Source: Candidatus Mediterraneibacter merdavium
GTDB taxonomy: Bacteria > Bacillota > Clostridia > Lachnospirales > Lachnospiraceae
NCBI GenBank assembly: GCA_019118545.1
Contig: DWYT01000160.1
Coordinates: 43,345 to 107,344, forward strand
Direction: 5' to 3'
DNA: 64,000 bases
Positions 1,177 through 44,874 of the stretch are shown one piece after another; position 1 is the stretch's first letter; each line of letters begins with the position of its first letter. The notes below the pieces were generated by a model that saw only the letters and a list, made by a program, of their open reading frames with translations, had not been told where the DNA came from and searched no databases. The position numbers and the translations under genes are program-made.

Positions 1177-2040
1177 ATGGAAGTAAGGACAGCCGCTTCA
1201 CCGAGAGACGTGAAGCACTACACAACAGACAGATTAAGAGAGGAATTTCTCATTCAGGATCTGTTTCAGGCAGATGAGATCAAGCTGGTATACAGCCATA
1301 TCGACCGTATTATCACAGGTTCCGCAGTTCCGGTCAATAAAAAACTGGATCTGACGGCGGGAAGTGAATTAAGGGCAGAGTATTTCCTGCAGAGAAGAGA
1401 GATGGGTCTGATCAATATCGGGGGAGACGGTGTTGTGACAGTCGATGGACGCACATATGAGATCAAGGCGCGTGACGGGATGTATATTGGATGCGGTTCA
1501 AAAGACATCTCCTTCGAGAGCAAGGACGCAGCGAACCCGGCGAAGTTCTACCTCAACAGCTGCCCGGCGCACACAGAGTACCCGACAGTACATATCAAGC
1601 TGGAGGGCGAGCCGGAGGAAGGCGTTGTCATCGTAAAAGATGAGAACAAGGTTGAGCTTGGAACACTTGAGGACTCCAACCACAGAGTGATCAACAAATA
1701 CATTGTAACAGGACAGGTGCAGAGCTGCCAGCTTGCAATGGGACTGACGAAGCTCCTTCCGGGAAGCGTATGGAACACAATGCCTGCCCACACACATGAC
1801 AGACGTATGGAGGTATATCTGTATTTTGATATGGAAGACGACGCGTTTGTTGTGCATTACATGGGCGAGCCTCAGGAGACGCGCCACATCATCATGCACA
1901 ATCAGGAGGCGGTCATCTCTCCGAGCTGGTCCATCCATTCCGGATGCGGTTCCAGAGCATATACATTCATCTGGGGAATGTGCGGTGAGAATCAGGACTA
2001 CGGCGATATGGACAATATTGAGAACAAAGATCTGAGATAA
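1177..2040 (+). CDS. kduI: 5-dehydro-4-deoxy-D-glucuronate isomerase
   Basis: Full-length KduI-like protein (MEVRTAASPRDVKHYTTDRLREEFLI...; PAHTHDRRMEVYLYF); RBS aggagg. Confidence 0.95.
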   Translation: MEVRTAASPRDVKHYTTDRLREEFLIQDLFQADEIKLVYSHIDRIITGSAVPVNKKLDLTAGSELRAEYFLQRREMGLINIGGDGVVTVDGRTYEIKARDGMYIGCGSKDISFESKDAANPAKFYLNSCPAHTEYPTVHIKLEGEPEEGVVIVKDENKVELGTLEDSNHRVINKYIVTGQVQSCQLAMGLTKLLPGSVWNTMPAHTHDRRMEVYLYFDMEDDAFVVHYMGEPQETRHIIMHNQEAVISPSWSIHSGCGSRAYTFIWGMCGENQDYGDMDNIENKDLR

Positions 2041-39987: not shown

Positions 39988-41172
39988 TTAAATGGGCTCT
40001 CCGTTTTTATATTTCTGAATAATGTGCTGGATTCTCTCGTTCGGGTTTAAGAACGTGCTGATCGAGCCGTCATGATTCAGTGTGTCTACAATGAGTGCGA
40101 TGTATTTGCTCATGTCGCAGTTGATATAGTACGGTCTGGACAGAAGCTCCGGTGTCTGGTAGATCAGATTGGTCGTGAGGATACCGTGGAGAATCCCTTC
40201 GTTGTACGCTTTGTCAAACTTTTCCATGCCGTTTGTAAACAGGCCGAAGGTAGCGGCGGCAAAGATCCGTTTTGCCTTCCGGCGCTTTAACTCAGTGGCG
40301 ACGTCGATGATACTGTCGCCGGAGGAAATCATGTCGTCGATAATAATGACATCTTTCCCCTCTACGGAGCTTCCGAGGAACTCATGAGCTACGATCGGGT
40401 TGCGGCCGTTTACAATCCTTGTATAGTCGCGGCGCTTGTAGAACATCCCCATGTCAAGGCCCAGTACATTGGCAAGGTAGACGGCACGGTTTGTACCGCC
40501 CTCATCCGGACTGATGGCCATCATGTGTTCACTGTCGATCTGCAGATCCTTCACAGTGCGAAGAAGTCCCTTGACAAACTGATAGGTCGGGGACACTGTC
40601 TCAAAACCGCTTAAGGGAATCGCGTTCTGTACCCGGGGGTCATGCGCGTCAAAGGTGATAATATTGTCAACACCCATGCGTACCAGTTCTTGGAGCGCCA
40701 GCGCGCAGTCTAAAGACTCGCGGGAATTCCGCTTGTGCTGCCTGCTCTCATAGAGGAAAGGCATAATGACATTGATACGGCGTCCCTTTCCGCCGATGGC
40801 GGCGATGATCCTCTTAAGGTTCTGGAAATGATCGTCCGGGGACATATGGTTAATCCTTCCGGTAAGAGAGTAGGTCACGCTGTAATTGCACACATCTACC
40901 ATCAGGTACAGGTCTTTTCCGCGCACGGATTCCCCGAGGATTCCTTTTGCCTCTCCGGAGCCGAAGCGGGGTACGCGTGCTTTGATGAGATAAGTGTCCT
41001 TTTCGTATCCCGGGAAAGCAATGTCGTCCCTGTACTCATTGTTGGCTTCATGGCGCCATCTGACAAGATATTCATCCACTTTCCGCCCCAGCTCTTCGCA
41101 GCCTTCCAAAGCTACAAGGCCAAGGCTCCCGACCGGTATGTTCTCCAGAATCCGTTCTGTTCGACGTATCAT
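39988..41172 (-). CDS. prs: Ribose-phosphate pyrophosphokinase
   Basis: KDLYLMVDVCNYSVTY, GKGRRINVIMPFLYESRQHKR, FDAHDPRVQNAIP, VEGKDVIIIDDMISSGDSI; 394-aa form. Confidence 0.88.
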   Translation of the reverse strand: MIRRTERILENIPVGSLGLVALEGCEELGRKVDEYLVRWRHEANNEYRDDIAFPGYEKDTYLIKARVPRFGSGEAKGILGESVRGKDLYLMVDVCNYSVTYSLTGRINHMSPDDHFQNLKRIIAAIGGKGRRINVIMPFLYESRQHKRNSRESLDCALALQELVRMGVDNIITFDAHDPRVQNAIPLSGFETVSPTYQFVKGLLRTVKDLQIDSEHMMAISPDEGGTNRAVYLANVLGLDMGMFYKRRDYTRIVNGRNPIVAHEFLGSSVEGKDVIIIDDMISSGDSIIDVATELKRRKAKRIFAAATFGLFTNGMEKFDKAYNEGILHGILTTNLIYQTPELLSRPYYINCDMSKYIALIVDTLNHDGSISTFLNPNERIQHIIQKYKNGEPI

Positions 41173-42176
41173 TTACGTTCCTCCCTGTGTTCTATCTTTT
41201 TCTTGATTCGTATATCATCACCGATGATCTTCAACATCGTATAGCTGCTGGTGATTCTGGAAAATGAGCGCTCTGTATAGAGATTGGCGATCGAATCCAG
41301 AGACAGGTTCGTTGAGATAATCGTTGATTTCTTATGTATGAGCCGTTCGTTAATACAGGTGAAAAATTGTGATGTAATGAAGGCGTTCGTGTATTCGCTC
41401 CCAAGATCATCGATAATCAGGAGATCGCAGTTGAAGATATAATCACTTATGTTCTGCGCATCCGCATCACTGCGGTCAAATTTCGACTGCGACAGTGTGA
41501 CAAAGAGCTGTGGAGCGGAGAGATATAGCACAGAATACTCCCGGTTCATGATCTCCTTTGCTATGCAGACGGAGAGAAACGTCTTTCCCACCCCTACATC
41601 GCCATAGAGAAAAAGGTTCCGGAATTCCTCTCCAAAGGTGTCGATAAAATCGTGGCAGCGCTTAAGCGTCTCCTCCATCATCGCGCGGGCGGAGCGCCCG
41701 GTTTTTTTATCATAATGTGAAGCTGAATAAAAATCAAGGCTGAAATTGTCAAAAGAAGCCTCTGTTGGAAATTCTTTAATATTGGACTGTTCATATAAGA
41801 GCCGGATAACAGCCTGTTTGAAGCAGTGGCATTTCTCATTGCCGATATATCCCGTATCCTTACAGTCCGGACATTCATAGACCGGCTTTAGGTAATCAGC
41901 GGGGAAGCCTGACGAAACGAGCAGATTCTTTTTGCTGCTGCGCAGAATCTCCAGTTCTTCCTTCAAGGAGTCCAGCGCCCGGCTGTCGCCCCCCAGCAGT
42001 TTCTTGCCATACTGAACGGAGAGGATGGATATGGATTCATCCAGCGATTTGAATTCAGGGAGCTTTTTATATACTTCTTCATAGCGGGCGGTCTGGATGT
42101 CGCGGCTTTTGAGCTGCTTCTTTTCATATTCCCGCATGATTGTGTAGTATTGTGCATTTTTGAGTGCCATTGACAT
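41169..42176 (-). CDS. dnaI: DnaC/DnaI-type helicase loader ATPase
   Basis: YECPDCKDTGYIGNEKCHCFKQ zinc region, LYGDVGVGKTFLSVCIAKEI, LLIIDDLGSEY. Confidence 0.88.
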   Translation of the reverse strand: MSMALKNAQYYTIMREYEKKQLKSRDIQTARYEEVYKKLPEFKSLDESISILSVQYGKKLLGGDSRALDSLKEELEILRSSKKNLLVSSGFPADYLKPVYECPDCKDTGYIGNEKCHCFKQAVIRLLYEQSNIKEFPTEASFDNFSLDFYSASHYDKKTGRSARAMMEETLKRCHDFIDTFGEEFRNLFLYGDVGVGKTFLSVCIAKEIMNREYSVLYLSAPQLFVTLSQSKFDRSDADAQNISDYIFNCDLLIIDDLGSEYTNAFITSQFFTCINERLIHKKSTIISTNLSLDSIANLYTERSFSRITSSYTMLKIIGDDIRIKKKIEHREERK

Positions 42177-42183
42177 ACTCCTT

Positions 42184-43296
42184 CTAATTGCTGTTCAGTA
42201 ACTGCTCTTCCAGAGAGTCCATATCATAGCTGCGCCGCTCAAAGTTGTTCAGATTTCTTGTGACGGCTTTTGTCCGTGCAGAGGATCTTCCTAAAGCGCG
42301 CTCTTTCTGGTATTCCTCATCGAGCGTCTCGATGTCCTTCAGATGGCGGATGCCCTTGCCATGCCATTTTGTAAGGATGGAATCCGCGTACTCAAAGCTT
42401 GGCTGGTGAGTGGCGGTGATTGTGCGCCGGCAGGCCTCCGCTATAATATCAGAGGAAAATGCGTAATCTTCGTTCCATTTGCGGATATATGTAAGCTCCG
42501 ATGCCGCCGGGGCACGGTTTTTGATGCCAAACGCGTTCAGCACGGTGTAGCAGTTCTTATTATAAAGAGCAGACTGTTCCTTTGCCTGAGCCACCGTTAC
42601 AATCCCCTCGTCTGTCCACGAGAAGGCAACCTTGCGGATGTAGTGCATACTCTTATGTCCGTTCTCCACACAGGACTCGATCAGATACTCGATCAGATCC
42701 GCAGACATATGGAGCGTATCATAAAAATATGTGATCGTCTCCATATCGGAGTGGGTCAGGGTTTTGCCGAGATACTGCTCGGCAATGAACAGAAGAGACT
42801 TGATCTCCTTCTGGGCGCGCAGCGTGTCAATGGAGACAGCTTTCCCTGTCCGAACAGAAGAGACGGCTTGTCTGTGTGCAGGTGTGCCCTGCGCAGGCTC
42901 TGGGGCCGTGCCGTTGTGCTCTGGGACGGACTGGTCCGATACATTTTGCGCAGGCTCTGCTGCAGCAGGCGCGGAGATGCTTTCCGAGCTGCGCAGAAGC
43001 GCGGTCTTCTGCAGCTCAAGCGCGGTGATCCTGCCCTCGCTGTCATGCTCCATACGCAGAAGTCCCTTCTTCTCCCAGTAGCGGAAAGCACGGAGAATAT
43101 CCTTCTCTGTGTTGTTCAGGCAGTCTGCGATCGTCGTGAGCGTCAGGGACGAACACGGGTCGTCGAGGTGACGCAGAAGAAACAGATATACCTTCACAAA
43201 CTCGCCGTTGGCGTCAATCATATAGTTGTCAATAAAATCATTCGGAAGCAGCGTCGCGTTTGTCTGAAATTTATTTTTTAGAGTCAATGTCTTCAT
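42184..43296 (-). CDS. dnaD: DnaD/DnaB-domain replication initiation protein
   Basis: N-terminal wHTH and DnaD-like C-terminal domain (LGKTLTHSDMETITYFYDTLHMSADLIEYLIESCVENG). Confidence 0.85.
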   Translation of the reverse strand: MKTLTLKNKFQTNATLLPNDFIDNYMIDANGEFVKVYLFLLRHLDDPCSSLTLTTIADCLNNTEKDILRAFRYWEKKGLLRMEHDSEGRITALELQKTALLRSSESISAPAAAEPAQNVSDQSVPEHNGTAPEPAQGTPAHRQAVSSVRTGKAVSIDTLRAQKEIKSLLFIAEQYLGKTLTHSDMETITYFYDTLHMSADLIEYLIESCVENGHKSMHYIRKVAFSWTDEGIVTVAQAKEQSALYNKNCYTVLNAFGIKNRAPAASELTYIRKWNEDYAFSSDIIAEACRRTITATHQPSFEYADSILTKWHGKGIRHLKDIETLDEEYQKERALGRSSARTKAVTRNLNNFERRSYDMDSLEEQLLNSN

Positions 43297-43383
43297 AGCT
43301 ATCCTGTCCCACCTTCTCTAGTTGTATTCTGTGAAGTGTACAACTAATATATCATTTTCTCTCCCGGTTAAAAAGTATTTTTT

Positions 43384-43436
43384 CGTGGGTAACTCCGGGT
43401 TTTTTGTAGATAACTCTGTGTAGAACATGTGGATAA
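43384..43436. promoter_or_regulatory. Three DnaA-box-like 9-mers upstream of dnaD
   Basis: CGTGGGTAA (43384-43392), TGTAGATAA (43405-43413), TGTGGATAA (43428-43436, perfect complement of TTATCCACA); each followed by CTC. Confidence 0.65.
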
Positions 43437-43497
43437 CTCCCGCAGGCCTTGTGTTTTCTGGCGTTGCGGTAATCAGCTCCGGCCGGGCGGCAAGGGT

Positions 43498-44874
43498 CTA
43501 TCCGAGCAGGTCTTCCCCGATATTCACGACATCGCCCGCGCCCATGGTGATGAGCAGGTCGCCGGGGCGGCAGTTCTTCTTTAAGAACGCCTCGATCTGT
43601 TCAAAGCTCGGGAAATAATGAGTGTCCGTTCCCAGCTTCGCTGTCTCCTCTGCCAGATCTTTCGAGGAGATCCCCAGAGTGTCTGTCTCACGCGCCGCGT
43701 AAATGTCGGCAAGCACGAGATGGTCGGTGTGTGAGAGCGCCTCGGCAAACTCCCGGAAGAATGCCTTTGTGCGGGTATAAGTATGGGGTTGGAAAACACA
43801 CCACACCGCGTTGTGCGGCGAATGCTGCGCTGCTTTTAGCGTGGCTTCGATCTCTGTCGGATGGTGGGCGTAATCGTCCACAATGGTAACGCCGTTCCAT
43901 TCGCCTTTGTACTCAAAGCGGCGGTCCGTACCTGTAAAAGAGAGAAGTCCTTTCTTCGTGACGTCCATGGGGATGCCGAGCAGATCCGCCACAGCGATGG
44001 CCGACAGTGCGTTGGATACGTTATGATCCCCGGTGACAGAGAGAACGATGTGGTCTGCATATTCCCCGCGGCGGGACAGATCAAAGGAGACATGTCCCTT
44101 ATCATCATAGGAAATGCCGGACGCGCTGTAATCATAATCCGCCCCCGGGCCGTAGGTGACGACCTTGCAGGGAAGTCCCTCGTAGATCTCGCGGTGGTCC
44201 GTGATCTCGCCGTTGATCACCAGAGTGCCGTCCTCAGGAAGAAGAGCAGTAAACTGGCGGAAAGAATGACGGATATCCTCCAGATCCTTAAAGAAGTCCA
44301 GATGGTCTTCCTCTATATTTAAAATAACACTGATCTTCGGGAAGAAGTTCAGGAAACTGTTCGTGTATTCGCAGGCCTCTGTGATGAAGGTGCCAGAGCT
44401 TCCCACGCGGATATTACCGCCAATCGCTTTGAGGATGCCGCCCACGGAAATGGTCGGGTCTAAGTCCGCCTCCAGAAGGATGTGTGAGATCATGGAAGTG
44501 GTCGTCGTCTTGCCGTGGGTTCCGGATACGGCGATCGGTGTGTCATAGTTTTTCATAAGCTGCCCCAAAAGCTCTGCCCGTGTCAGCATGGGGATCTTCT
44601 GCGCAACTGCCTCGATCAGCTCGGGGTTGCTGCGGCCGATAGCGGCAGTGTATACAACGCACCCGATACCGGGGGTGATATTCCCGGCGTTTTGTCCATA
44701 CATAATGTGTGCGCCTTCAGATTCCAGTTTTTTTGTCAGCGGGGACTCCTTTGTGTCAGAGCCTGATACAGTAAAGCCTTCCCTGAGAAGGATCTCTGCC
44801 AGTCCGCTCATGCTGATGCCGCCGATGCCGATGAAATGAATGTGGATCGGGTGTTCAAAATCGATTTTATACAT
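43498..44874 (-). CDS. murC: UDP-N-acetylmuramate--L-alanine ligase
   Basis: HFIGIGGISMSGLAEILL, SGTHGKTTTTSMISHIL, DDYAHHPTEIEATLKAA. Confidence 0.96.
   Translation of the reverse strand: MYKIDFEHPIHIHFIGIGGISMSGLAEILLREGFTVSGSDTKESPLTKKLESEGAHIMYGQNAGNITPGIGCVVYTAAIGRSNPELIEAVAQKIPMLTRAELLGQLMKNYDTPIAVSGTHGKTTTTSMISHILLEADLDPTISVGGILKAIGGNIRVGSSGTFITEACEYTNSFLNFFPKISVILNIEEDHLDFFKDLEDIRHSFRQFTALLPEDGTLVINGEITDHREIYEGLPCKVVTYGPGADYDYSASGISYDDKGHVSFDLSRRGEYADHIVLSVTGDHNVSNALSAIAVADLLGIPMDVTKKGLLSFTGTDRRFEYKGEWNGVTIVDDYAHHPTEIEATLKAAQHSPHNAVWCVFQPHTYTRTKAFFREFAEALSHTDHLVLADIYAARETDTLGISSKDLAEETAKLGTDTHYFPSFEQIEAFLKKNCRPGDLLITMGAGDVVNIGEDLLG

Follow-up and report, generated by a model that had tools for sequence, protein, structure and literature searches.

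A Conserved Array of DnaA Boxes at the dnaD-dnaI-prs Promoter of Mediterraneibacter: A Predicted Control Region of the Helicase-Loader Operon

Four DnaA boxes upstream of the primosomal gene dnaD in a Mediterraneibacter genome form an array that is certainly a genuine and conserved sequence feature, and that is predicted to serve as a DnaA-binding upstream regulatory region, which controls the promoter of dnaD, dnaI, and prs (probability roughly 0.74). That DnaA binds to the array at all is estimated to be very likely. The array was studied in a window of 64 kb, i.e., the whole stretch of DNA that was analyzed, which stems from a fragmented metagenome-assembled genome (MAG; G000) of the family Lachnospiraceae, and by comparison with related genomes.

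Layout of the Array and Its Promoter

On the minus strand, the array runs from 43436 to 43384 and consists of four boxes in the same orientation, TTATCCACA-2bp-TTCTACACA-3bp-TTATCTACA-12bp-TTACCCACG, or in full TTATCCACA-TG-TTCTACACA-GAG-TTATCTACA-AAAAACCCGGAG-TTACCCACG. It is located 88-140 bp 5' of the dnaD ATG (43296). Its elements and the neighboring features are as follows (bits per column from 60 relatives):

43428..43436, minus strand: DnaA box 1, TTATCCACA, perfect; 1.50 bits per column
43417..43425, minus strand: second DnaA box, TTCTACACA, 7/9 positions; 1.33 bits per column
43405..43413, minus strand: third DnaA box, TTATCTACA; 1.93 bits per column, nearly invariant within the genus
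43400..43404, minus strand: A-tract immediately past the third box; 1.82 bits per column
43384..43392, minus strand: DnaA box 4, TTACCCACG, 7/9 positions (two mismatches), just 5' of the -35 region; 1.29 bits per column
43369..43374, minus strand: putative weak -35 hexamer TTTTTA, from sequence and conservation; 17 bp from the -10
43346..43354, minus strand: putative extended -10 (TGA TATATT) of the dnaD-dnaI-prs promoter, TGnTATAAT-like in relatives and at a fixed distance from the boxes; hexamer at 43346-43351, 1.39 bits per column
42184..43296, minus strand: dnaD-like primosomal gene, 370 amino acids (Pfam DnaB_2, PF07261, E=8.9e-41)
41169..42176, minus strand: dnaI-like helicase loader gene, 335 amino acids (Pfam IstB and Bac_DnaA ATPase domains, AAA+)
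39988..41172, minus strand: prs-like ribose-phosphate pyrophosphokinase gene, 394 amino acids (Pfam Pribosyltran_N)
43498..44874, minus strand: murC, the upstream neighbor (Mur ligase Pfam domains, family-wide synteny)

The original prediction had described a triplet of boxes with a common GAGTTA core. Its three boxes are all present on the minus strand, 88-140 bp 5' of dnaD, and GAG precedes each of them; the count has to be corrected to four, as the box TTCTACACA at 43417-43425 had been overlooked and the spacers are thus 2, 3, and 12 bp, and the proposed GAGTTA core is in part the 3-bp spacer. We agree that dnaA is absent from the window; it was not found anywhere in the source assembly (89.6% complete) either.

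Only 7 bp separate dnaD from dnaI, and prs begins inside the last 4 bp of dnaI; the three genes therefore probably constitute a single operon. We infer that the -10 at 43346-43351 is the one in use. The third box starts exactly 62 bp 5' of this hexamer, and if the hexamer occupies positions -12 to -7, the box centers lie at about -93, -82, -70, and -49, i.e., near whole helical turns apart and without overlap with the -35 or the -10. Another A-tract, at 43378-43383, precedes the putative -35 and is UP-element-like, and A-tracts thus occupy UP-element positions. A scan with consensus promoter and terminator patterns returned nothing on the dnaD strand, a point against the predicted control; the putative promoter escapes such a scan because its -35 is weak. 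No RNA family of Rfam was matched in 43100-43700.

Conservation Within the Genus

The array is found 5' of dnaD, intact or nearly so, at all 30 same-genus loci, and also at most of the named Mediterraneibacter, Faecalicatena, and Muricomes loci. A loss of the boxes upstream of dnaD orthologs would have spoken against the original prediction; within the genus, they are kept throughout. Gene order is similarly stable: among 67 named relatives, dnaI was matched in 67, an upstream murC in 63, and prs in 64, where the 1,500-bp flank that was searched stops inside prs. The best named DnaD matches are Mediterraneibacter genomes, many of them MAGs from chicken gut.

At 27 of the 30 loci, 62 bp separate the start of the third box (TTATCTACA) from the -10, and at two the value is 61 or 63 bp, while the distance from the same box to the dnaD ATG ranges from 117 to 242 bp and reaches 539 bp at a locus with an insertion. 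In the anchored alignment of 60 relatives, information peaks at the boxes and the promoter, with no peak between murC and the array (0.19 bits per column 5' of the array) or in the leader (0.24). Because information is concentrated there, and because the distance to the -10 is fixed and that to the ATG variable, the array is tied to the promoter, and to neither murC nor the start codon.

Individual loci deviate in detail. The fourth box is missing in G001 and G017, the second box is shifted in G011 (L027) and G017, and the locus of G005 ends at a contig edge inside the array. In [Ruminococcus] torques ATCC 27756 (G034; L022/L250), a repeat is inserted between array and dnaD, and the first box is lost. 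The source MAG itself contains two dnaD copies, whose proteins are 87% identical (G000:C12:221-1294 and G000:C92:85531-86640); the second of them resembles that of Candidatus Mediterraneibacter pullicola (G032) and is probably contamination from a sister species.

Distribution in the Family and Beyond

A survey of one genome per genus across the family yielded 76 murC-dnaD gaps, which together contain 161 perfect boxes in the orientation of dnaD and 8 in the opposite one; 200 dinucleotide shuffles gave a mean of 0.3 and a maximum of 2. In 68 of the 76 gaps, at least two boxes have no more than one mismatch; 0.4 such gaps would be expected. The layout varies between genera: up to eight boxes occur per gap, compared with four in the window, the spacing is 0 bp in many other genera, and many carry exact tandems such as TTATCCACATTATCCACA and two clusters per gap. 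In the two-cluster genera, one cluster directly follows the murC stop codon and the other lies 58-97 bp before the -10, a range instead of a single distance, which counts against the predicted control; the cluster adjoining murC is unexplained by promoter control alone. Across the family, box-to-promoter distances show a significant periodicity of 9-10 bp, best at 9-9.5 bp, but helical phasing is not claimed from it, since the 9-bp tandem unit, along with common descent, may be the cause. In four genera, the distance between murC and dnaD is below 85 bp, which leaves little room for a separate promoter, and no array was found there.

Several other families of the order retain both the boxes and the murC synteny, whereas 20 genomes of the class that belong to other orders yielded neither an array at dnaD nor an adjacent murC match. 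Because of this distribution, the array looks like an innovation of the order that includes Lachnospiraceae.

Two further features were seen in the gaps of relatives. In many other genera, e.g., in L131, L139, L151, and L155, one arm of a palindrome that ends in ATGTGGATTTTTT consists of the murC-proximal boxes; the structure resembles a murC terminator with the DnaA box as its stem. Between promoter and dnaD, 21 of 58 leaders (e.g., L219, L225, and L239) contain a GC-rich hairpin and, after it, TTTT (GGAAAGCGG...CCGCTTTC), possibly an attenuator. The leader of the window lacks the GC-rich hairpin, and attenuation was rejected as a part of the mechanism there.

Chance, Replication Origin, or Titration Site

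Could the array be a product of chance, or of a coding-driven surplus of TTATCCACA-like words? Such words are indeed frequent: TTATCCACA is over-represented genome-wide in G000 (51 copies vs. 9 of the reversed word), and the window holds 25 box matches with at most one mismatch, about twice the 12 expected and a number reached in 0 of 100 shuffles. Against this background, the array still stands out, being the only site of the window where two such matches fall within 100 bp of each other (461 bp separate the next-closest pair), and its two overlapping pairs are the only ones with 2- or 3-bp spacing and a score of at least 15/18 on both strands of the entire 64 kb. In 16 same-genus genomes, the pattern TTATCCACA-N1..24-TTATCYACA has 22 matches, compared with 0 for a reversed control, with 0-2 per genome and most of them at dnaD. 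The three-box geometry (at most three mismatches) occurs at dnaD in 14 of the 16, and elsewhere in these genomes only as three looser matches (in G017, G027, and G020); in G017 and G027, the match is no more than about 500 bp away from dnaA. The array is moreover intergenic, and its conservation, spacing, and orientation exclude chance, leaving this account a negligible probability. That the array is a chromosomal or auxiliary replication origin is hardly more credible. Clustered boxes, A/T-rich tracts, and the two-cluster layout of many genera would fit an origin, but GC skew keeps its positive sign across the whole window, and in G137, G090, and other complete relatives, the strand on which TTATCCACA prevails changes at dnaA and not at dnaD, so that an origin at the array was rejected. 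The regions flanking dnaA also have the usual bipartite box clusters, and oriC is at dnaA in the complete relatives, 240-570 kb from dnaD (519 kb in G137, 239 kb in G090, 566 kb in G017, 414 kb in G027, and 287 kb in G100).

A more serious competitor, though still an unlikely one, is that the array chiefly titrates DnaA or modulates its activity, as box clusters in Bacillus subtilis and datA or DARS in Escherichia coli do, and that it sits at the dnaD promoter by coincidence. The large number of boxes in other genera, up to eight in two clusters, would suit such a site, as would the fact that dnaD belongs to the origin side of the chromosome in five single-contig genomes, where 4-16% of the genome length separates it from dnaA. 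A second tandem-box element, which is found across the family without a constant neighbor gene, indicates that these bacteria do keep DnaA elements outside promoters. Yet for pure titration, the distance to a promoter would not have to be fixed, and 62 bp is what is observed despite variable leaders; nearly all boxes share one orientation, and the array is missing where dnaD has little room for a promoter of its own. Titration or reactivation, the other function originally considered, is unneeded to account for the promoter-fixed geometry, but is a possible additional effect, especially in the two-cluster genera.

The second element has the geometry TTATCCACA-N44-TTATCCACATTATCCACA, usually with TTATACACC just 5' of the tandem. 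In the source MAG, its position is as follows:

L197 (G000:C142) 1479-1550, minus strand: second DnaA-box element

It is also present in L178, L179, L198-L201, L203-L206, L209, L210, and L215. Its geometry is constant while its flanks vary, with nlpC/P60 on one side and, on the opposite one, DUF1858, a ribosome hibernation gene that is hpf-like, or others; in G137, G090, and G017, about 40-66 kb separate it from dnaA. It resembles a self-contained site for DnaA titration or for control of DnaA activity.

The surplus of TTATCCACA is found in G017, G027, G090, and G137 as well as in G000, and amounts to 80 copies vs. 8 reversed in G017. The word is strand-biased in whole genomes: the leading strand carries TGTGGATAA, and the bias changes strand at dnaA. 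Its use in coding sequence (GTG GAT AAN) may be the cause of the surplus.

Comparison With Known DnaA Targets

It is well established that DnaA acts as a transcription factor via clusters of its boxes. According to a ChIP-seq study of 2024, E. coli DnaA binds in vivo almost only at double DnaA boxes, several of which, such as those at oriC, datA, and purH, have the “gag” spacer that the array also has (PMC11317965). The 2- and 3-bp spacing of the array corresponds to the in vivo preference reported there (PMC11317965); the 0-bp spacing of many other genera apparently lies outside the spacings tested in that study. Particularly close is the resemblance to nrdA, purH, polA, and nrdD of E. coli, where same-strand pairs with 2-3 bp spacing, often “gag,” combine one near-perfect and one degenerate box; as in the array, the double boxes of E. 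coli promoters are positioned 5' of replication and nucleotide genes (PMC11317965). The targets differ: the E. coli list of DnaA sites covers genes of replication and of nucleotide metabolism, and a helicase loader is missing from it (PMC11317965), whereas the array precedes dnaD-dnaI and prs, and, unlike the double boxes, has three consecutive boxes (2 and 3 bp apart) plus a fourth.

In B. subtilis, eight strong DnaA regions have been described, including oriC, sda, ywlC, trmE, yydA, ywcI/vpr, and gcp/ydiF; they do not extend to dnaD, dnaB, or dnaI (PMC4447404), a point against the predicted control. The clusters at sda, ywlC, trmE, yydA, and ywcI/vpr are like the array in that they are multi-box clusters outside oriC of a member of the Bacillota, and they act on transcription (PMC4447404), as is predicted for the array, but their genes are not orthologous to dnaD-dnaI-prs. 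Dense boxes away from oriC are likewise known from the oriC-proximal clusters of B. subtilis (Okumura et al., 2012, as summarized in PMC5295017) and from datA and DARS of E. coli; these act on the supply or nucleotide state of DnaA, whereas the boxes of the array are locked to a promoter. A regulator site 5' of dnaD exists in Staphylococcus aureus, too (PMC10746227). That site is bound by WalR at a different motif, in contrast to the predicted DnaA boxes of the array, and no effect on dnaD expression could be shown for it (PMC10746227). In the literature that was searched, which largely comprised papers outside subscription journals, no report of DnaA control of dnaD, dnaI, or a helicase-loader operon was found.

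Proposed Regulation of the Operon by DnaA

The original prediction was borne out in part: of the functions that it had offered, control of the helicase-loader operon by DnaA is the one that is well supported by comparison, through conservation in the genus and the family and the fixed distance to the promoter despite a variable leader. In the proposed mechanism, DnaA would nucleate on the perfect box 1 and extend cooperatively over the neighbors at 2- and 3-bp spacing and the promoter-proximal box. It would then sit at -93, -82, -70, and -49, near whole helical turns, and leave the -35 and -10 uncovered, and transcription of the helicase-loading proteins, together with PRPP synthesis, would be tuned to the amount or activity of DnaA. 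TTATCTACA and other 9-mer variants of the array also occur at oriC of these genomes, where boxes likewise recur 10-12 bp apart.

Because the boxes lie 5' of a promoter with a weak -35, activation is somewhat favored over repression. A weak -35, an extended -10, and A-tracts at UP-element positions would be the layout expected of an activator-assisted promoter. The reverse sign is a variant of the same explanation, and its share is contained in the probability given at the outset: an oligomer of ATP-DnaA might spread from the array over the -35 and shut the operon after initiation. Repression is the commoner mode at known DnaA targets of B. subtilis (PMC4447404), and the promoter-proximal box ends only about 10 bp from the -35; on the other hand, no box in the genus overlaps the -35 or -10, and all lie 5' at near-helical spacing, an argument that is not decisive. 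Overall, we consider repression possible but rather doubtful.

Implications

Promoters that are regulated by DnaA are known; what would be new is the helicase-loader operon as a target. Chances are about even that the array represents an order-wide, hard-wired circuit, in which DnaA directly sets the transcription of dnaD-dnaI, with prs, beside a second, stand-alone box element near the origin, a regulatory layer that is undescribed in B. subtilis and E. coli. If DnaA does control dnaD-dnaI-prs, the protein that opens the origin would also set how much of a nucleotide precursor and of the helicase-loading proteins is supplied, and a feedback from initiator to loader that is missing from the two standard models would operate in gut anaerobes of a dominant family, in which the control of replication initiation is almost unstudied.
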